Below are positions 5,072 to 22,402 of a stretch of 24,352 bases of DNA, piece after piece. The notes beneath the pieces were generated by a model. It worked only from the letters and a program-made list of their open reading frames with translations. It searched no databases and was not told the origin of the DNA. Each line of letters starts with the position of its first letter. The first letter of the stretch is position 1. Source of the DNA: a virus; the IMG/VR virus record IMGVR_UViG_3300021077_000171, positions 1 through 24,352 of that record; one strand, 5' to 3'. Position numbers and translations under genes: made by a program.

Positions 5072-7302
5072 TAGTGCTTTTCCTTTTCTGCCAACTGTTT
5101 CGTGATTTCGTCAACGATCTTAGACGCAATTTCTTTCGGATCTCCATTCTGAGAAATAATCGTGATACCACCTGCGAAATGATACTTACCATCACCGTCG
5201 CGTTTAGCATGAGATGCAAGCATATTCGCATACGTCCGGAGAGATTCGCCAGAGCCAACCTCCTTACTGACAGAATAGGTCTTTCCACCACTCGTGGTGA
5301 CGTTATCAGAATGCGCGACTGTGTTTCCACCTTCCCACTTACCGACGCGATCGAAATCTTTTCCGGTAATACTTTGCAGATTACTTATCTGGGTGGGATT
5401 CCATTTTCCAGTGACAAGATACTCTATCCATTGACTCGGACTAAATAGAGCTGCAAGATTGTTGACGATGAGATCAATAACACCAAGGACAGAACTCAAT
5501 CCTCTTTTGAATGCATGCACAATATCATCCCAGTTCGTAGCAAGAGTATAAATAAGAGCTATAACCGCAGATACAATCAAGATAATTGGATTTGCATCCG
5601 CAGCAAGATTAAACAACCATTGCGCTGCAGTAGCAGCCTCGGTGGCAACCTTTAACGATATCCATAGCCCAGCAAGGAATCCTAGAACCTGACCTATCCC
5701 ACGCAGGTTGTCGGTTCCGCTTGGGAGAATATCAAAAAACCATCCAATCAATTTCATAAACGGTTTTGCTGCCGTCAGAGCAACATTAAAAGCATCACCA
5801 GCACCTTCCATAAAACCACCGAAAAACGCACCGGCCCTGATCTTTACCTCTTCGATAAAGACCAGAAACGGTATCAAGTGGTTCTGCATATTCGACCGTG
5901 CCTCTTCCTCTGAATCAGAGGTCAGGCCGGCGAATCTCAACACCGCATCAAACATTTTTCCTACCGCACCGGTGATACCACCAACAATACCGCCAAAGAA
6001 TTTCCATGTCGCTTCCCAACCCGCACGACTTCTGGCAAAACTCTCGTCTAATCGAGTAATAAACGCACCAATACCCTTCAACGAACCCATGAACGGTCCC
6101 TCAAGCGTTGCACCAAGACTTCGCTTAAAAGAATCCCAACGATTCTGCATGTTCGAGATCTGACCAGGGAGCGAATTCAAGTTGATCAGATTCATCGTGC
6201 TCACCTTACCCTGTGTCTTTTCAGGTGTAAAGTTCGCGGCATCAGAAAGCATCTGAGCAAGGTCTTTTGCAGACGACAACCGAACCAATAACCCGGCACT
6301 ATAACCACCGACCAATCTACTCATATCACCATAAGGAATGCCCTGCAACTTCTTCATGACGTTGAAAAATCCATGCGTCTTGATATCAAGATCGGAGAAC
6401 GTCAATCCGTATTGCTGTAACATTTTAGTATGGTATGGAAGGTTCTGAGACAACATCTGGAACAACATCCGCAATCTCGTCGCACCCTCAGCGCCATAAT
6501 ACAAATCGGTTCTGCCAAGGATTGACAACAACTCATTGAACGGAACCTTCATTGTCGATGCTTCCGTGCCCACCAACTTCAATTCCTCGGTGATTCTATT
6601 GGCCCGGATACTGGTTCGGTTCAATGCCATTGCCATCTGGTCAAACATTTGCGTAGTCTCACTGATAGGACGACCATATTGTGCAACCAATCTGAGGATG
6701 GACACACCGTTCTCTCTAACCTCTGATTGTGTTGCTTGCGAATAATTGATAACGGACTGTGTAAATCCTTTCACCTTGTCCGCAGACATCGGCAACGTTG
6801 TCGTCAAATCATAGGCAGCATCAACAATCTTTTGCATACTCACAACACCATGAGTAGACATTTCATTGAATTGGTGCAAAATCATAGACATTTCTTCGTT
6901 GGTATAACCGGTTCCAGCCTGCACATTCTTCGCCGCATACTCAACGTTCTTTGTCGTCTCAAGGATCTCGGAGATACCTCGCTTTATCATGTATATACCA
7001 CCTAGAACAGTGATATACGGAAACAATCGCACCACGCCAGCCCGGAAGTCAACCAGATGCTGACGATGGTGTTCAAGCGTATTACCAAAATTATGGACCG
7101 CATTGGTGGTTCGATTAGCATTATGCTCAGTCGTTAAAAAATCACGACCCATTTTGTCAACAGCAGAACCGGTTGTCTTTGAATTCTTAGTCAGATTCTC
7201 AGCTAAATTGATTAACTTCTCCAACGCCGAATTGATCTTGTTGGCATTGACCGAAGCACCATCAGCAATATTGATTGCCAGTCCCAGATTCAAACCATCC
7301 AT
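5071..7302 (-). CDS. Tail tape measure protein
   Basis: The 743-residue protein has the expected layout of a tape measure: a helical N-terminal region, then a TP901-type core with YAAKNVQAGTGYTNEEM, MQKIVDAAYDLTT and EVRENGVSILRLVAQYGRP (about residues 120-220). Gly/Ala-rich hydrophobic stretches follow, including ANPIILIVSAVIALIYTLATNW starting near residue 570, which has the NPI..i..aI..li.l...W signature. A charged C-terminus ends in AEKEKH. In the tail the protein sets tail length and helps DNA entry. Its modest size fits a tail of roughly 100 nm (inference at about 0.15 nm per residue). It starts at ATG 7302 after AGGA-TAAGTT, 16 nt after the frameshift product ends, in the standard chaperone-then-tape-measure order. 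Confidence 0.9.
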   Translation of the reverse strand: MDGLNLGLAINIADGASVNANKINSALEKLINLAENLTKNSKTTGSAVDKMGRDFLTTEHNANRTTNAVHNFGNTLEHHRQHLVDFRAGVVRLFPYITVLGGIYMIKRGISEILETTKNVEYAAKNVQAGTGYTNEEMSMILHQFNEMSTHGVVSMQKIVDAAYDLTTTLPMSADKVKGFTQSVINYSQATQSEVRENGVSILRLVAQYGRPISETTQMFDQMAMALNRTSIRANRITEELKLVGTEASTMKVPFNELLSILGRTDLYYGAEGATRLRMLFQMLSQNLPYHTKMLQQYGLTFSDLDIKTHGFFNVMKKLQGIPYGDMSRLVGGYSAGLLVRLSSAKDLAQMLSDAANFTPEKTQGKVSTMNLINLNSLPGQISNMQNRWDSFKRSLGATLEGPFMGSLKGIGAFITRLDESFARSRAGWEATWKFFGGIVGGITGAVGKMFDAVLRFAGLTSDSEEEARSNMQNHLIPFLVFIEEVKIRAGAFFGGFMEGAGDAFNVALTAAKPFMKLIGWFFDILPSGTDNLRGIGQVLGFLAGLWISLKVATEAATAAQWLFNLAADANPIILIVSAVIALIYTLATNWDDIVHAFKRGLSSVLGVIDLIVNNLAALFSPSQWIEYLVTGKWNPTQISNLQSITGKDFDRVGKWEGGNTVAHSDNVTTSGGKTYSVSKEVGSGESLRTYANMLASHAKRDGDGKYHFAGGITIISQNGDPKEIASKIVDEITKQLAEKEKH

Positions 7303-7318
7303 AACTTATCCTAAGCTA

Positions 7319-7603
7319 CTACCCTAATCCGTTACAATGTGCGATCGTTTCAAGGAGCACTCGTCTCCAATCGTTTTCATTTTCCATGTCCTTGACAATT
7401 CGTTCAAACATCTTTATCCGTCTCGGGCGAGTCATCATCGTTATCTCTTTTTCAGTAAATCCGGTATGCGTTGCAATCACATACTCCTGTTCATCCAACG
7501 CATACTCGAAGTCATCGTGAAACAGTAACGCTGCTAACTCACCAAGGGAAAAAAAGACGCGTAATCCAATGCAGTCTTTATCGTTGTCTGACACTCCCCG
7601 CAT
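7319..7603 (-). CDS. Frameshift extension (T part) of the tail/hub assembly chaperone
   Basis: This frame is open from 7603 to 7319, overlaps the end of the 283-residue chaperone gene by 70 nt and lies in its -1 frame. It has an ATG at 7603 but no SD there. A heptamer T_TTT_TTT lies in the correct phase at 7549-7555 (zero frame TCT TTT TTT CCC). Slippage would join residue 279 of the upstream frame (..DYASFF) directly to SLGELAALLFHDDFEYALDEQ, adding 76 residues to give a 355-aa fusion. Such -1 frameshifting between two chaperone frames before the tape measure gene is the rule in lambda (G/GT) and known in P2 (E/E'). The segment SLGELAALL to the stop is the functionally meaningful part. I regard the ATG-initiated form as unlikely. 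Confidence 0.7.
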   Translation of the reverse strand: MRGVSDNDKDCIGLRVFFSLGELAALLFHDDFEYALDEQEYVIATHTGFTEKEITMMTRPRRIKMFERIVKDMENENDWRRVLLETIAHCNGLG

Positions 7604-8385
7604 TGTGTTTCAACCAACATATCAATTTGAGGCAACCCATTCATCGCATCTCGGACCAGTATACGGTCGTCGGCAATCAGTCCACCTCGATCGGCGAAGA
7701 TCATGTTTCCCGCTATCATCGACTCGAACATATCCTGTGGAATCTGGAATCCATCTTCAAGTGTTTTGAAACTTGTGAGATTGTCGTTTACAAGCTTCAC
7801 CTGAAAATCAAGAATTCGGGTCGGTGAATACGTCTTCTCATTCCGAAGCGCATCGCCGATCGTAGGAATCTTAAAGGTCATGACCTTGAATACCTTATCT
7901 TCCCAGCCCAACTCTTTTTGTCCAGCAAGTTTTTTATCAATTCGTCTTTGCCATCCTCGATTCAAAGTGACTGTCAACGAACCAATAACGCCTTTGTTGT
8001 CCGGTATTTTCAGGGATTCAAGGTCAATATCTACGAAGTTTGTTGAATTACAACGACCGCATCGGCACTGTTGGCGCTTTAAGACCGATCCAAACGTTTC
8101 CGCGTGCCCTGCAACCAATATGGCTGCCGCATCCGGTAACGGAATATGCTTTACAATTTCAGGAATCTTTTTACCAGAGGATTCCTCGAATTCATAAGAA
8201 ACATTTTTGCTGCCAAGCGTATTCAATAAACCCGACAGCACACTCGCCGTCCAGGTCTGGGGTTTCTCGTGACGCATGGCTTCATTATGAATAATTCTTT
8301 CCATAAAACCACCAACCAAGTTCACATCAAACGATGTGATGTCTTCGTCTTGGTAGGTAAATCCAATAGGCAACACCCTTTTCAT
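7534..8385 (-). CDS. Tail/baseplate-hub assembly chaperone (G part), zinc-binding type
   Basis: The 283-residue protein lies between tail tube and tape measure, the invariant place of tail assembly chaperones, and its 3' end carries a -1 slippery site. It resembles T4 gp26-like baseplate hub assembly chaperones. It starts with LPIGFTYQDEDITSFDVNLV, has AILVAGHAETFGSV, then a Cys cluster CRCGRC (C107, C109, C112), and near the end a second pair QCGEC (C262, C265). Together these could bind one zinc. The start ATG at 8385 follows AAGGAG-CGTTT. The chaperone is thought to coat the tape measure during tail assembly and not to remain in the virion. Zero-frame termination gives 283 aa and the frameshift gives 355 aa. 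Confidence 0.7.
   Translation of the reverse strand: MKRVLPIGFTYQDEDITSFDVNLVGGFMERIIHNEAMRHEKPQTWTASVLSGLLNTLGSKNVSYEFEESSGKKIPEIVKHIPLPDAAAILVAGHAETFGSVLKRQQCRCGRCNSTNFVDIDLESLKIPDNKGVIGSLTVTLNRGWQRRIDKKLAGQKELGWEDKVFKVMTFKIPTIGDALRNEKTYSPTRILDFQVKLVNDNLTSFKTLEDGFQIPQDMFESMIAGNMIFADRGGLIADDRILVRDAMNGLPQIDMLVETQCGECQTTIKTALDYASFFPLVS
7549..7555 (-). promoter_or_regulatory. Programmed -1 frameshift slippery heptamer T_TTT_TTT
   Basis: On the minus strand seven consecutive Ts occur in the zero frame as TCT TTT TTT CCC. This is an X_XXY_YYZ site with all Ts, which allows both tRNAs to re-pair after slipping back one base. The zero frame ends 17-19 nt further on at TAG. The -1 frame stays open for 76 codons. 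Confidence 0.65.
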
Positions 8386-12883: not shown

Positions 12884-14590
12884 TTATTGCGGATTCACCG
12901 GTCCAAAGTATTTATCAAATAAGGCAACGATCTTCATTACGGTATCGTCACCCAGTTCAGTTCGTATTCGCAACGCCAACTCTCTCAAATCAGCATTCCG
13001 TGTCACATACCATGACACCATTTCAGCAAAATGCTCCTTGACATTCTTCGTAGCTTGTTCGTCAATGTAGACACCCAGCGGTTTCGTCATCTTCCAGTTG
13101 CCGGCTTCAAAGATATTGCCACCGCCAACATTCTCCCACGCCAAGTCTGCAAACTCTTTAAAGAATTCCGGAGCACTGTAATGGATGCTGTGTCCGATTT
13201 CGTGAACAACCGTCCAGCCAAAGTCACCGCCTTCACTGCTCTTGGGGTCAATGAAAATCGATCGATGCTCAAGCGAATACACGGCCAATTCGTTTTCTGC
13301 CAGATCTTCACGGATGATATTGGTCAACTTCATATTCGACTTCATCTGCTCATACGGCATCACGTCCATGGTATCGGCCATGATGTTCATTTCGTCAAGC
13401 GCAAACTCATCGTCAACACTGATTCCATAGATGTCCTGCATATACTTGGCAGCATCAGCAGGATTAACAAAGGCACCAATCCGTTCCGCATTGAAATACG
13501 GTTCGGGTGCCGGCATCTTCTCGACTTCTGAGATGTAGTTTCTGATTCCGCGTTCATCCGGTTGCGTCGGTTTCAAGATCGACTGACCGGTTTCATATTC
13601 GCAGTAGCAACCACAGTTGATGACGTTGTTGGCGCTGGCCCCCGGATCGTGCGGCCTCATCATTTCCTCGCCATCTACCGTAAACCGTTCATTGAACTTT
13701 AACGTGGTTCCGGCCACTGCCTTATGCGATTTTCTTGCACTGGCACGAATCAGTTGATACCACGTCTTCAACACCTCGACACCAAACCGTTCTCGATATT
13801 CGTTGGCAAACTCATACTCACCAAAGTTGGCAGCATCCGCTACCTCGGTAATGGCGATCGTAGACGCATTGGACTTGTCACCAAGGACAGACTTGACTCG
13901 ATTGACCATTGTCGATCGATCGTCTCCATTGGCATAACCACTGGCAAGACTTGACTGCAGACGTTTCTTTAGGTTCTCAGTAATCGTTTGCGTCTTGATC
14001 TTGAAATCTTTGCCGAACAAATACTCATGCGCTTTGCGATTAAATTGACTCCACTGGGCATCAAAATTCACGTTGAACTTAATGCTAAAAGGCGGGTTCG
14101 CGCCAACCTGTTTGTATTGGATCTTTGTGGGTATGGACGCAACACTGCGCTCCGCGTACGGGAACAAGGACGTATTTGAATCAATGCCCTTGCTCTTTTT
14201 CCGGAACACCTCGTAGCGCTTGTCCGTGGCCAGACTCAGGTCTTTGTAGACCTGCTCGGTGCCGCCTCGAAGCGCAGATGTTTTTGAATTTGCGATCATA
14301 AGACCCAGCGTCAATAAAAAAGGCAAGCCATTGACTACATCCCCATTGGTCAGATTCAAGTTCTTGATAACCTCGGGATCATATTCCTGTCTTGCCTTTA
14401 TCGGAACATAGTTTATTTCAGCAACCTGTTTGTTCAAATACTGATAGACCTGGTCTCGTTCTTTAACTTCGTCTTTATCGGAGGGAACGTCCTCAATAAT
14501 GTCGTCGGTTACGTCATCATACAAACCACCCAACGACTTTTCCAACTCAGCGACATCCGGCCTAAAATCATACGAGTGATGTACTGGCAT
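12884..14590 (-). CDS. MuF-type head morphogenesis protein fused to a C-terminal HExxH metallopeptidase domain
   Basis: The first part of this 568-residue protein (about residues 200-335) has the MuF/SPP1 gp7 signature: an SLASGYANGDDRSTMVNRV helix, then AITEVADAANFGEYEFA, ASARKSHKAVAGTT with the conserved R..H, and MRPHDPGASANNVINCGC with Cys pairs (C326, C328, C330). MuF proteins sit near the portal and enter the capsid. The C-terminal part carries VVHEIGHSIHY (H463-E464-x-x-H467), followed by KEHFAEM (E519, E523), giving a zincin active site with a candidate third ligand. The middle (about 340-450) resembles a linker plus a small beta domain. The start overlaps the C2H2 gene by 23 nt and lacks an SD. 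The protease may act inside the capsid or be injected as an effector. Confidence 0.75.
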   Translation of the reverse strand: MPVHHSYDFRPDVAELEKSLGGLYDDVTDDIIEDVPSDKDEVKERDQVYQYLNKQVAEINYVPIKARQEYDPEVIKNLNLTNGDVVNGLPFLLTLGLMIANSKTSALRGGTEQVYKDLSLATDKRYEVFRKKSKGIDSNTSLFPYAERSVASIPTKIQYKQVGANPPFSIKFNVNFDAQWSQFNRKAHEYLFGKDFKIKTQTITENLKKRLQSSLASGYANGDDRSTMVNRVKSVLGDKSNASTIAITEVADAANFGEYEFANEYRERFGVEVLKTWYQLIRASARKSHKAVAGTTLKFNERFTVDGEEMMRPHDPGASANNVINCGCYCEYETGQSILKPTQPDERGIRNYISEVEKMPAPEPYFNAERIGAFVNPADAAKYMQDIYGISVDDEFALDEMNIMADTMDVMPYEQMKSNMKLTNIIREDLAENELAVYSLEHRSIFIDPKSSEGGDFGWTVVHEIGHSIHYSAPEFFKEFADLAWENVGGGNIFEAGNWKMTKPLGVYIDEQATKNVKEHFAEMVSWYVTRNADLRELALRIRTELGDDTVMKIVALFDKYFGPVNPQ

Positions 14591-15059
14591 TGGTTGTGTG
14601 TGCGCTATTCATGTGAATCTGCAGTTTACGTTTTGACGGAAACTTTAGTTCGCACTTTGTGCAGGGAAACTTTTTTGTATCAACAGATTCATCAGCCATG
14701 GCATCTGTTTCCGCTGCAGGGGATGTAGTATCAGCATTGACTACTGCATCAGTTGCCGCGGCATTTTCCAGAGGTTGTTCCGGTTGGACCGGAACATTGA
14801 GCGCAGATTCAATCGGAACAACAACGACCTGAGTATTTTCTGCTTCACCAATGTTCTCCTTGGATTGGGTTGAAACGGCTTTTGCTTTTTGATTTATCTC
14901 ATGTTCTGCTTTTTTAAGATCTACACACTCCCAGCCGCGCTCGCCATGCATAGAAACAGCATGATGTGCGGATACAAGAACCGATTGGCCTGGTGCAACA
15001 AGTTGACCAAGGTGACGTGTTGCAATCGTGCCATTGTATCGTAATTCATGGTTATCCAT
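14568..15059 (-). CDS. Phage protein with C-terminal C2H2 zinc finger, following the capsid gene
   Basis: The chosen start at ATG 15059 lies 7 nt after AGGAG and gives 163 aa. Longer versions would begin inside the intercistronic hairpin. Residues 1-45 form a small domain (GTIATRHLGQLVAPGQSVLVSA, then GERGWECVDL). A low-complexity Ala/Glu/Val/Pro linker follows. The last 30 residues contain a textbook C2H2 finger: C-x2-C-x3-F-x5-L-x2-H-x4-H, introduced by a Phe-Pro pair. The protein sits between the capsid polyprotein and the MuF protein, so it may be a head decoration or a DNA/RNA-binding protein that travels in the head. I do not recognise the N-terminal domain. Confidence 0.7.
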   Translation of the reverse strand: MDNHELRYNGTIATRHLGQLVAPGQSVLVSAHHAVSMHGERGWECVDLKKAEHEINQKAKAVSTQSKENIGEAENTQVVVVPIESALNVPVQPEQPLENAAATDAVVNADTTSPAAETDAMADESVDTKKFPCTKCELKFPSKRKLQIHMNSAHTTNASTSLV

Positions 15060-15089
15060 TGCCAAACTCCTGTTCATGATGGAATAAAG

Positions 15090-15122
15090 AGGGTGACTAG
15101 GGCCATACAACCTAGCCACCCT
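15090..15122 (-). terminator. Intercistronic hairpin after the capsid gene (attenuating terminator)
   Basis: A 12-bp stem with one mismatch (AGGGTGGCTAGG / CCTAGTCACCCT on the minus strand) lies 25 nt after the capsid stop and is followed by CTCTTTATTCC. It looks like a partial terminator or a 3'-end protector that keeps capsid mRNA more abundant than the downstream genes. The U-tract is interrupted, so termination would be incomplete. Confidence 0.5.
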
Positions 15123-15147
15123 TGGGGTTGCCTCGCGAGACACCTTC

Positions 15148-17904
15148 TTACGAAAGAACGGTAACCAGCGACATTTTTTCGTTAATAGGTGAACTCAAAG
15201 AATCTTCCTGATAGATGTAGTATTCATCGCCGCCGATAAGCTGGCCAGTCGTGCTACGAACAGGATACGGCCCTTTGAGAACGAGCGGTTCAAAGATTCG
15301 GAAGATGGTCGCATCCTTTTGAGACAACAAGATGTAAGCATCATCGAACACATCGGAACCGAAGTGCGGCAGACCGCCGGTGAAGCCATAATTTCCTTCA
15401 CCAACGGCTGTCGGTGTCTGGAAACTTTTACGTTGACCCATCGCTTCATAGGCCTTTGCCTGCGTCATATAATTTGAGGTAACCTCAGAGGCAAGCAAGA
15501 ACTCAGGTTTGTACCCGCGTTGTTGCCGTTGCAAGGCGTTTTTGTTTGTGACTGCGAAAAGAAGGCCATTCAAATATTCTTCCCATTTGGTGCCGGCAGG
15601 ACAAGCAGTCAAATCAAAACGAGTTTCATTTGTTGCTTTATTGCCACTCACAACAATTGGTGTAGCATTCGGAACGACAACCACACTACCGTTAATATCA
15701 ACAAACGTGATTGTCGCGTTTGGGCCATCAAGCACGTAGAACATATTACCGGTGGTGACCATTTCATATTCACCGATCGCAACACCGCCGACATTGACGC
15801 CAAATGGTTCACCTGTTGAAATCGATGCATTGGCTACAACTTGGAACGATGTTGTGGCGCCATTACCTACACCATTGAACGTAAACGGCAGCGAACCATA
15901 CGATAATGCTGTATCACGCATATTGTTGAAAACCATCTTTTGGAGTGAACGTTTCAAGTCCAAAATCAGGTTGGAGATACCCTGACCGACACCGGTGATA
16001 TTCGGCGTACGTTTCGACAATGTAGCGAATTCGTCTGAGAATACAGCAGAGAGCTTGCTCGATGTCGCATCAATGTCGAACCATTGTGTGATCAGTTTGC
16101 CCGTCGACATCGGCTGAAATTCGCCTTGTTTGATATCGGCGATACGTCGTTTTGAAGGATTATATGTTTTCTGTGTGGAGGCTAATCCATTTTCACGACG
16201 ATAGAGCGTAATAGGCACTTGATCGCGCTTATGCTCCATCGGTCCAAACAAAGTCAAGCTCTCGACAAATACATCGGCATAAACTTCAGCCAACACGATA
16301 CGAGAGATTGTATATGGTACCTGGAAATCCGCGGGCGTTTGCGTTGCATCAGCAAGAGCAACAATCTTCTCACGTTCTGCCATCAGTGCAGTTCCATGAA
16401 TCGTGTCATAAATTCTAAGAATGCGTTTAACCACTTCAGATCGATTTTTACCAACGAGAACATCTTCTTTCTTGGAATTTATATATCCGTAACCGGAGAT
16501 CTGGTCAACCAAGTATTCTACACCTTTGAGATGTTCCGGACCGACTGTAATATCCATGGTGGATATTCCCTTTCCACTGATACCTTCGCTACGTTTTCGT
16601 TCTTGGACTACTCCAAGATTCATTACCTTCATCAGCTCATTGACCGATGTGACGATTGCTTGTTCATCAACAAAATCACGCGATTTGAGCGTATCGGTAA
16701 TCATTGTTTTCGCGTCATCGGCAACATCCAGTTTTGAGATCAAATCAGTTAAATATGTGGCAAGAGTTTTTGCCTTTGCATCTGCCGCTAGTTGTTGTTG
16801 CTGCTGCTCAACATAACCTTTGAGCAACGCCGAAGTGTCGGTGATTGCTTTTAATGCAGCTACACCAACCTTGCCATCAACAGGCGCAGTAGCTTGAGCA
16901 GCAACTGGAGCCACTCCAGGCGTAACCGATGGAGTAGCGGGAACCGCTGCGGATATAGAAGCAGGTGTGGGAATCGCCGTTGTGTCGTTGACAGGGAGCA
17001 ACGATGCTTGCTGTGGCATTATCTTATCGACAATTGTCTTAAGATCGCTCGAAAGCGCAACAAGGTTTGCATTTTTTTTGGCCGCATCGATGGTTGTATC
17101 AGAGAGCAAGGTTTCGACGCCAGACTTCAATTGGTTGAACGAGTCAACGATTGCCTTCGGCATCTCTCCATTGTTCTTCGCCATCTGATTTTTGATGGTA
17201 TCAACCAGAGATGTTACAGCCTCAACTAATTTTTGGTTTTGTTCAATCAAAACTTTCGGATCCATAATGTCCTCCATTTGGAAAGTGTCTTCGATACGTT
17301 TTGAGTTTAGGATCGTGTCAAGTTCGACCGTATCGAGAAGTCGAAGTCTTGTCCGCTCTCCAGCGGCGGCTGAATCGAGATAGCAAAAATCATATCCTAA
17401 TATTTTTACAATCTTGTCGACGATGATGTAGTAATCGCCGTTATCATCTTCACGCACACTCTGCACACCAAGAGCACGTTGAGAAGCACCCAACTCAACG
17501 CCCTCGTCAAACAGTTGCTGGGTCTTTACGCCTTTTTCTGTTCCAAGCATTCTGATATTGACAACGGTTTCCCCTTTATCGTTGAGTTCAACGATCTCAG
17601 GAATGCCGGCGATGTCTTCCGGATTACCGCGAATGTCATCGCCCTTGCTGGGATCAGGGTGATTGATATACGAAGTCAGTTGCCATTTATTCTGCATCTG
17701 GTCTTGGACGGCATCGCGCTGAACCTGCATCGGAATAATTCTATTGTTACCATTGACAATGTTCGCAATCGAACCAATAGTTTGAAATCGATATTTCTGG
17801 TCAGTCAACTTCTCGACCCTGATCGGAACTACATCAGAGATCATCTGAATGGTCTTACCATTGAATTCCATCAACTTTTTTATTTTATCGCTTGGTAGGG
17901 TCAT
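15148..17904 (-). CDS. Prohead protease - scaffold - major capsid polyprotein
   Basis: The 918-residue protein starts at ATG 17904, with AAGGAG upstream. A TTG at 17925 would put the SD inside the gene. Residues 1-190 match T4 gp21-type (U9/S80) proteases: NGNNRIIP (51-58), YINHP with H82, and GVELGASQRALG with S141 in place of the usual SSRG. Residues 215-440 are helical, with an Ala/Pro/Thr-rich hinge (300-345) and a poly-Gln patch (368-371), as expected for scaffold. From about 450 to 918 is a capsid-like region: a helical start, a VPYTISRIVLAEVYADVFVE segment, RENGLASTQK, and a beta-rich insertion (about 690-780) before a final EYYIYQEDSLSSPINEKMS. T4 encodes these three parts separately. 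Maturation cleavage would have to separate the capsid part from the rest. Confidence 0.75.
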   Translation of the reverse strand: MTLPSDKIKKLMEFNGKTIQMISDVVPIRVEKLTDQKYRFQTIGSIANIVNGNNRIIPMQVQRDAVQDQMQNKWQLTSYINHPDPSKGDDIRGNPEDIAGIPEIVELNDKGETVVNIRMLGTEKGVKTQQLFDEGVELGASQRALGVQSVREDDNGDYYIIVDKIVKILGYDFCYLDSAAAGERTRLRLLDTVELDTILNSKRIEDTFQMEDIMDPKVLIEQNQKLVEAVTSLVDTIKNQMAKNNGEMPKAIVDSFNQLKSGVETLLSDTTIDAAKKNANLVALSSDLKTIVDKIMPQQASLLPVNDTTAIPTPASISAAVPATPSVTPGVAPVAAQATAPVDGKVGVAALKAITDTSALLKGYVEQQQQQLAADAKAKTLATYLTDLISKLDVADDAKTMITDTLKSRDFVDEQAIVTSVNELMKVMNLGVVQERKRSEGISGKGISTMDITVGPEHLKGVEYLVDQISGYGYINSKKEDVLVGKNRSEVVKRILRIYDTIHGTALMAEREKIVALADATQTPADFQVPYTISRIVLAEVYADVFVESLTLFGPMEHKRDQVPITLYRRENGLASTQKTYNPSKRRIADIKQGEFQPMSTGKLITQWFDIDATSSKLSAVFSDEFATLSKRTPNITGVGQGISNLILDLKRSLQKMVFNNMRDTALSYGSLPFTFNGVGNGATTSFQVVANASISTGEPFGVNVGGVAIGEYEMVTTGNMFYVLDGPNATITFVDINGSVVVVPNATPIVVSGNKATNETRFDLTACPAGTKWEEYLNGLLFAVTNKNALQRQQRGYKPEFLLASEVTSNYMTQAKAYEAMGQRKSFQTPTAVGEGNYGFTGGLPHFGSDVFDDAYILLSQKDATIFRIFEPLVLKGPYPVRSTTGQLIGGDEYYIYQEDSLSSPINEKMSLVTVLS

Positions 17905-18064
17905 TCTGTCTGATCTCCTTAGCAATATTTTCTCTGGTCTGAGAAGTGGGTGTAAATACTATTGCTTTTACAAAGCCAGTGTTCGGCTGAATCAAAACCT
18001 CTTGGTCGCCTACATGCGTACCACCGTTTTCCGGTTTATGCCATCCACTATTTTCATTTCCCAT
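17885..18064 (-). CDS. Small protein (59 aa) overlapping the capsid gene start
   Basis: ATG at 18064, preceded by AGGA with a 7-nt spacer, opens a frame that ends at TAA 17885-17887, overlapping the capsid polyprotein start by 20 nt. Codon choice looks like the neighbouring genes. It begins MGNENSGWHKPENGG and ends in KEIRQNDPTKR, hydrophilic with a central QPNTGFVKAIVFTPTS strand. The capsid SD lies inside it, so the two genes would be translationally coupled. The same frame stays open upstream into the terminator at 18190 without any start codon, encoding TPNYIDAGKQKAHD and TLTITGPY-like sequence, so the ORF could be the tail of a longer lost gene. I do not recognise a family. Confidence 0.5.
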   Translation of the reverse strand: MGNENSGWHKPENGGTHVGDQEVLIQPNTGFVKAIVFTPTSQTRENIAKEIRQNDPTKR

Positions 18065-18737: not shown

Positions 18738-19694
18738 TCATTCTTCTGCTATTCGTTTGTGTTTATTCTTAACAAGCTCTTTATACGCGTCTTTCATTTT
18801 ATTATCAAGAAAGCTTGTATCAATGAGATCATTCCATCGAAGTATAGCCTTATCAAATTTATCGAATATGTTTCTTTGTTGTTTTTCATCCAATTTAATT
18901 ATCTTGAAAGCTGTCGTAAAATCGTTTCTTCTAATGTTGCGTTTCTTTCCGTTAAGAGTAAGTGCAAGCTCTTCCTTATCTTCCGGGTTGACCAATGTAG
19001 TAGCCAACATATCATACGCTGGTGTAAGGATATACCCAATTCCTGGTCGATTGAAGAGCGAAAAGTTTTTCAAGTGCATATCGACATTCCCCGTAAGAAA
19101 TGAGAAGAGCACTTGTTCAAAGAAATTCACCACGTCAAGGCCAGGATTAGATGAATATTTCAAAATAGCTTTGGCAATTTGTTCATAAGATCCATCGTAC
19201 TTTTGTTCGGTCAAGCGTTCAGTAAGTTGACACATATCTTCCATGTGCAATTTACCTTTCTTAGTCCGATCAATACGTTTCGTGATGTATGCCAATGTAC
19301 CGGATTGCATACGAATCAAACTATGCGGCACTGTGGGGATTTTAGACAATTCAGCAAGGTGCATAGTCAAATCTTCTACTTCCGGCATCTGAGGATATTT
19401 AGGTGTAGGTGGTTTTAAAATATAGTTGCCCCATAAACCTACGATTGTAAATCTTTCGGGTTCAATTTTTGTTCTTCCGTTAGCTATTTCCAAAGATAGT
19501 TTCGGCTGAACACCTGTAACAGTTGCTCGACTACGAACTGCTACTAAAGCCAAATCGTACATCTCCTTTTCCAAGTCAGGCAGTACGGGCGCAGCAGATG
19601 AATCAAATATTTTTTTACTGCAAGTCGGATGAAAATCCGTTTGTCCATCTTCTAAGAGTTGGTAGCAATATAAACAGCGGTTATTTTTCATCAT
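18738..19694 (-). CDS. hipT: HipT-like serine/threonine kinase toxin
   Basis: This 318-residue HipA-family kinase lacks the N-terminal subdomain-1 of HipA, which is encoded separately by hipS. It begins with a Cys/His knuckle (C7, C10, H22, C25). The Gly-rich loop reads RATVTGVQPKLSL (T58, T60, where other family members carry Ser that is autophosphorylated). The ATP-site lysine is in YILKPP (K94). The catalytic loop GNVDMHLKNFSL supplies D205 and N210, and the metal-binding Asp is D228 in TPAYDMLA, so the kinase looks intact. HipT of E. coli O127 phosphorylates tryptophanyl-tRNA synthetase, and the target here is unknown. It overlaps hipS by 14 nt. Two adjacent ATGs (19694, 19691) follow AAGGA, and the second is better spaced. 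Confidence 0.88.
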   Translation of the reverse strand: MMKNNRCLYCYQLLEDGQTDFHPTCSKKIFDSSAAPVLPDLEKEMYDLALVAVRSRATVTGVQPKLSLEIANGRTKIEPERFTIVGLWGNYILKPPTPKYPQMPEVEDLTMHLAELSKIPTVPHSLIRMQSGTLAYITKRIDRTKKGKLHMEDMCQLTERLTEQKYDGSYEQIAKAILKYSSNPGLDVVNFFEQVLFSFLTGNVDMHLKNFSLFNRPGIGYILTPAYDMLATTLVNPEDKEELALTLNGKKRNIRRNDFTTAFKIIKLDEKQQRNIFDKFDKAILRWNDLIDTSFLDNKMKDAYKELVKNKHKRIAEE

Positions 19695-21352: not shown

Positions 21353-22402
21353 TCATGCTCCTTTAGGAATAAATGATTGTGCGAACGCCCATTTTTCCTC
21401 CGTGAACTTAGCCCACCAGATCTTGCCGTTGTGGAAACTGAATCTGAATCCATGATCGCGCACAGCATCCAATACCTCATCAGAAGGTTTTGTCCCGAAC
21501 AAGATTTCGATTCCGTTCTTCTCCTCGTTCTTACGAACCACAACACCTTCAACCACGACATCGGTTTCGACAACCGGATGTTCAGGCCGCACATAGAAAC
21601 TCTTGTTGTCCACCGCGTCACCAACTCGCCTGATGATGTCGCGTTCAATTTCAGCTCCCGTTACCGCGTCAATCATTCGATAGTCATCATACCGAACATT
21701 GAGACCAAACTCCGATTTCGCAATCTCAACGTGTCGTTCAAATCCAACCCGTCGCTGTGCAAAGACATATTTCGAGCCGCCAAACACATCCGGAAACGGG
21801 CTGTCGCTGTATTCGTAGATGTCTTCCATGCCGTTGAAGTAACCTTCTTCATATTTGCTGACGATCACTTCAACCTCTACCTTGGTTGGACCATCATCCC
21901 AACTCACATCGATCGAGTTGCCACCGCTATACGATCGGGATTTAACCGAGAACTTCTGGCCCGGGAACGCATGCGCCAGTTCCTTCTTGATATTCCGCGA
22001 CGCCAACACCCTGGACTTCTCACCGCCAGCCGTGGTTTCTAGATACGGATACTGTGCCGGCAACTGCTCGCGCAGCTCCTTCAGCTTCCGCTCTTCCTCG
22101 ACCTTTTCTAACCTCGCCTTCTCCAATGCGGTTTCGGCAACGATGACTGCCTCAACAATCTCAGCTTCCGTCGCCACGTCCTCAAGGATTGTCCAATGCC
22201 GCACCACAGATTCCGGCAACATCTTGCAATAGAAGTGACCGAACACAATATCCAAAACGGCGCCGCCACCGGTTAGCATCACCCCGCCAAGAAGTGTTTT
22301 TACCGTTTCCGGATGCTGTTCGCCATGAACGGCCATAACGATTCCGGCATTTCCAGAACGGTCTCTTACGTGTTGCCCTCGCCCAATTTTTCCAGTATAC
22401 AT
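21353..22402 (-). CDS. LPD29-domain polyvalent-type protein
   Basis: The 349-residue protein starts at ATG 22402 behind AAGGAGAGAGG. Residues 1-75 form an SH3-like or small beta domain (KIGRGQHVRDRSGNAGIVMAVHG), followed by a charged coiled coil (about 80-115). At about 130-200 comes an LPD29-like domain: ASRNIKKELAHAFPGQKFSVKSRSYSGGNSIDVSWDDGPTKVEVEVIVSKY, the known N.kkeLk.aFPg.kFsV.s..ysggssi.V.W.dGPt pattern. The last 50 residues contain NGIEILFGTKPSDEVLDAVRDHGFRFS and WWAKFTEEKWAFAQ, a motif shared by many plasmid and phage polyvalent proteins. Such domains occur in large proteins injected with mobile DNA, but here they stand in a mid-size protein. Its biochemical role is not established. 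Confidence 0.7.
   Translation of the reverse strand: MYTGKIGRGQHVRDRSGNAGIVMAVHGEQHPETVKTLLGGVMLTGGGAVLDIVFGHFYCKMLPESVVRHWTILEDVATEAEIVEAVIVAETALEKARLEKVEEERKLKELREQLPAQYPYLETTAGGEKSRVLASRNIKKELAHAFPGQKFSVKSRSYSGGNSIDVSWDDGPTKVEVEVIVSKYEEGYFNGMEDIYEYSDSPFPDVFGGSKYVFAQRRVGFERHVEIAKSEFGLNVRYDDYRMIDAVTGAEIERDIIRRVGDAVDNKSFYVRPEHPVVETDVVVEGVVVRKNEEKNGIEILFGTKPSDEVLDAVRDHGFRFSFHNGKIWWAKFTEEKWAFAQSFIPKGA

Follow-up and report, generated by a model that had tools for sequence, protein, structure and literature searches.

A phage head gene joining an S77-type protease, a scaffold-like region and a probable capsid protein carries a conserved candidate start at the protease/scaffold junction

A single gene on the minus strand, at positions 15148-17904 of the window (the whole analysed stretch of 24,352 bases, an IMG/VR virus record that is itself a fragment), joins a prohead protease of the T4 gp21 type, a scaffold-like region and what is most likely a major capsid protein. 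At the boundary between protease and scaffold it holds an in-frame start codon with a strong Shine-Dalgarno (SD) sequence, and such a start recurs at this boundary in divergent relatives. We consider it likely, with a probability of about 0.7, that this tripartite head gene belongs to a contractile-tailed phage and has a nested start, which would give a minor full-length protein and a major product of 705 aa.

The reading frame runs from an ATG at 17904-17902 to a stop at 15148 and encodes 918 aa; read on the plus strand, the same interval is interrupted by numerous stops. The initial annotation had described a 918-aa gene here and left the strand unstated: the frame exists, and its strand is minus, as for all features of the window given below. 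The main start is preceded by the SD sequence AAGGAG at 17915-17920 (−9.1 kcal/mol). Neighbouring genes on the same strand encode a Mu-F-like head protein, an SU10-type adaptor (weak match), a neck protein, a tail sheath and a tape measure, which points to a head-to-tail operon of a contractile-tailed phage. The small protein directly 3' of the gene (14568-15143) ends in a stretch that matches C2H2 zinc fingers below the threshold (E 3e-4), and the product of 12884-14590 combines a Mu-F-like head morphogenesis domain with a C-terminal stretch weakly like zinc metallopeptidases (PF15890, E 4.6e-4; TIGR04549, E 5e-4). A HipA-like kinase gene lies two genes upstream (18738-19694; HipA_C, E 6e-46), and the 'large polyvalent protein' domains LPD29 and LPD30 occur in the product of 21353-22402.

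That protease, scaffold-like region and capsid-like half share one gene, as had been proposed, agrees with the profile matches and with the uninterrupted frame; the scaffold role is assigned solely by position and helical content. The fusion is genuine and occurs repeatedly. Two close relatives, L003 (889 aa, 61% identity) and L004 (896 aa, 59%), have the same single-frame layout, and it was found intact in Virus Rctr41k and its relatives, in Aneurinibacillus pAT1 and its relatives, and in Brevibacillus phage Emery together with eleven IMG/VR contigs; in a twelfth contig of the Emery search the match spans the protease only. The Rctr41k protein is about 24% identical to that of the window, and the four groups stand at about 20-25% identity. 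Intact frames at 59-61% and at about 24% identity rule out an assembly or sequencing artefact as the source of the fusion. Genome scans gave no match with the alignment of the window's group and one short match with Rctr41k. PHROG 22848 (991 positions, unknown function) corresponds to this fused head protein, and its Emery member, gp6 (5358-8378 of that record), was deposited as hypothetical. In Microcystis phage yong1 (QNL13339, 4774-7320 of its record) the same capsid family is fused with a protease of the Mu-I type (PF10123, E 1.2e-10), so that the protease part has been swapped.

By its sequence, the stretch of residues ~35-180 (17365-17802) is a Peptidase S77, T4 gp21-like prohead protease domain. 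A gp21-type protease had been suggested for the N-terminal part, and the HMM search did find protease similarity there: this stretch matched the head maturation protease family phrog_207 with E 2.5e-9. Its Pfam S77 match (E 1.5e-4, 21.8 bits) falls under the 27-bit cut-off, and the Rctr41k protein scores above it. A profile that combined the three closest proteins matched three T4-like gp21 proteins with E 3e-8, and the alignment brought their His and Ser motifs together. His82 (17661-17659) and Ser141 (17484-17482) align with the HP and VSSRG motifs of gp21 and are invariant in five divergent proteins, which makes them candidate catalytic residues.

The C-terminal half, residues 441-918 (15151-16584, boundary approximate), aligns over almost its entire length with that of Rctr41k gene 30 (profile E 2.5e-22). 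This homology, together with weak gp23 matches, speaks for the capsid-like half that the initial annotation had postulated. The individual matches are the Gp23 Pfam family in L004 (E 0.003), a gp23 profile (E 0.0013, at a probability of only 19%), and the major head protein family phrog_267 for L028, a member of the Rctr41k group (E 0.0058); the sole PDB sequence match, at E 0.21, is to a phage major head protein. An HK97 fold, which the initial annotation had named as a test of this half, is only weakly indicated by modelling. The capsid-half model from 15 sequences reached a pLDDT of 53; in Foldseek searches with it, the PDB matches (capsid chains of phages S6 and T4) were not significant and matches in the viral library had low TM-scores. 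The full-length AlphaFold model from three sequences, with a pLDDT of 33, was useless. The capsid-half model contains a probable beta-rich insert at residues ~672-762. The capsid halves of L006, L025 and L026 contain a sequence that is similar to the Ig-like part of major tail proteins (phrog_807, best E 9e-13) and is inserted elsewhere than the modelled beta-rich insert of the window protein.

We regard the identity of the C-terminal half as major capsid protein as moderately supported. It might instead be another head or decoration protein, with the true capsid gene outside the window; the record is a fragment, and none of the HK97-fold matches was confident. We nevertheless hold this to be very improbable in view of the Gp23 and major-head matches, of the annotation of the Rctr41k product as capsid plus protease, and of the position of the gene in pAT1 and Emery, where it lies downstream of terminase and portal-region genes with no other capsid gene annotated nearby.

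Residues 214-440 (16585-17265) between the two parts were predicted, in a low-confidence model, to form helices around a Pro/Ala linker, and they are the least conserved stretch of the alignment. At their end lies Glu440-Gly441 (16582-16587), which is invariant in the window protein, L003 and L004. In T4, gp21 cleaves after Glu (PMC9026906). Glu440-Gly441 lacks the L or I two residues earlier that an (L/I)-X-E motif would have, and it is not conserved in the other groups, among which no shared cleavage motif was found. As a maturation cleavage site of the window's group it may be proposed on a speculative basis.

The junction start is ATG214 (17263-17265), with the SD sequence GGAGG at 17271-17275. 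All in-frame start codons were scored by pairing with the anti-Shine-Dalgarno sequence, and values at or below −8 kcal/mol were taken as strong. ATG214, at −9.3 kcal/mol, had the best SD of the gene, on a par with the main start, and was its only in-frame ATG or GTG with a strong SD beyond codon 60. Each of the 20 S77-type fusions examined, from four divergent groups, had an ATG or GTG of this strength where protease and scaffold meet (Met343 in Emery gp6), and in 15 of them it was the only one in frame, the first 60 codons (40 in the truncated L028) being left out of the count. Out of frame, 10 of 1061 ATG and GTG codons in the same genes reached this threshold (totals summed by hand). Since genes within a group are related and not independent, the evidence amounts to four groups; in one of these, Aneurinibacillus, the start lies ~150 residues further downstream and its homology is uncertain.

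The codon itself varies. Six genes of the Emery group have ATG as junction start and four have GTG; L028 also has GTG, while adjacent residues change and short indels occur around it among relatives. Where Met is replaced at other places in Emery-group genes, the codon is GTG in only 4 of 132 cases. Switching between ATG and GTG amid varying neighbours is the pattern expected from selection for initiation and not for the amino acid. Tests of synonymous codon choice in single genes were mostly not significant (p 0.04-0.36). In predicted RNA structure the internal start of the window gene was no more accessible than average, though most of the relatives' starts were. Fusions with other proteases served as controls and had no clear SD-start at the junction: in MD8 (ClpP-type) the best internal SD-ATG lies inside the protease, and in yong1 none reached −8 kcal/mol. 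On these comparisons, S77 fusions probably use a conserved nested start at the junction.

The initial annotation had reasoned that either an internal start or maturation cleavage must supply the capsid protein, and we agree that one or both are needed. The gene might be a pure polyprotein: every chain would start at the ATG at 17904, protease and capsid would be produced in equal numbers, and capsid protein would be released by cleavage alone; the SD-start at the junction would then be a relic of once separate genes. The intact fusion, the cleavage to be expected in any case and the unremarkable codon choice in single genes all fit such a scheme. A relic would decay, however, yet SD and ATG or GTG are kept over four groups at ~20-25% identity, including switches between the two codons, and we consider this scheme unlikely. 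The second start suggested originally was a different one, ATG450, which had been placed correctly at about 16557 (16555-16557). It would supply nearly mature capsid protein without scaffold. Met450 is common to the window, L003 and L004, with AAGG or AAGGA upstream. When the SD in front of it was checked, as had been advised, it proved weak: −5.3 kcal/mol in the window, −5.3 to about −6 kcal/mol over the three genes, and fifth in rank in each. The other groups have no start at that place, and most capsid protein would be made without a scaffold. ATG450 was thus rejected as the internal start, and its use is very improbable. The product of ATG214 would be a scaffold-capsid protein and not free capsid protein, so that cleavage would still be needed.

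The fused reading frame, the protease homology and the conserved SD-start at the junction can be read directly from the genes; from these we infer how the nested start is used, in which ratio the products are made, how they co-assemble and where they are cut. Initiation at the ATG at 17904 would give the minor 918-aa protease-scaffold-capsid protein, and initiation at ATG214 (17265) a protease-free scaffold-capsid protein of 705 aa, the bulk subunit of the shell. Both would co-assemble through their common scaffold and capsid parts, and each procapsid would thereby receive a few copies of the protease. An unequal supply is what the T4 prohead would lead one to expect, with its 72 proteases to 930 capsid proteins (PMC9026906). 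The protease, brought in by its own scaffold-capsid tail, would then cut off itself and the scaffold, probably on the C-terminal side of a Glu around residue 440, and removal of the scaffold would leave the mature capsid protein. On balance we also favour the view that the S77 protease-scaffold-capsid genes form a widespread and so far unrecognised class, with a conserved nested start and with minor protease-bearing and major protease-free precursors that co-assemble. Use of the nested start would account for an unequal supply of parts from one fused protease-capsid gene, an issue for any tripartite capsid gene. The same layout and start in the cultured Brevibacillus phage Emery make the proposal directly testable. 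The proposal also points to a possible role for PHROG 22848.

The fusion as such is known already. The contrast that the initial annotation drew with T4-like phages holds, since T4 keeps genes 21, 22 and 23 apart; it was incomplete in that precedents for a single gene exist. A 'tripartite capsid gene' is named for Gifsy-2 in the title of a 2010 paper (cited in PMC8814770), and gp5 of Pseudomonas phage MD8 was proposed to hold protease, scaffold and capsid in one gene (PMC8508860); in both, the parts stand in the same order as in the window. Protease-capsid fusions were also proposed for PAJU2 and Nocturne116 (PMC8306868). The MD8 protease is, from its sequence, ClpP-like, whereas that of the window is S77-like, and MD8 lacks the clear SD-start at the protease/scaffold junction that the window gene has. 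The protease of the Gifsy-2 gene is ClpP-like too. Our literature search, which covered a minority of the subscription papers and of the Gifsy-2 paper only its title, brought up no tripartite capsid gene with an internal start and no description of the S77-type tripartite gene as a class or of its conserved nested start. Gene 30 of Virus Rctr41k (KX853513, 'putative phage capsid protein and protease') and gp6 of phage Emery (KC595516) share the architecture of the window gene, homologous protease and capsid halves and the junction start; the inserts in their capsid halves differ from that of the window. With yong1 included, one and the same capsid family is fused to proteases of two types, S77 and Mu-I.

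T4 gp21 is a protease of the same type as that of the window, and in T4 protease, scaffold and capsid protein come from three genes. Gene 21 has a second start of its own, Met45, which is needed for head assembly (PMC9026906). Met45 precedes the catalytic residues and lies within the protease part, whereas ATG214 follows the protease. In HK97 gp5, a delta-domain scaffold is attached to the capsid protein and removed in maturation (PMC10275583), and the protease is a separate gene (PMC8508860). Scaffold and capsid are thus joined there as in the proposed 705-aa product, whereas in the window gene the protease is fused as well. In lambda C/Nu3 and herpesvirus UL26/UL26.5, excess scaffold free of protease is made from a nested start in the same frame. 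Their nested product is scaffold only, whereas the one proposed here also carries the capsid protein. If our reading is correct, the window gene would combine a nested gene of the lambda C/Nu3 kind with a scaffold-capsid fusion of the HK97 type.
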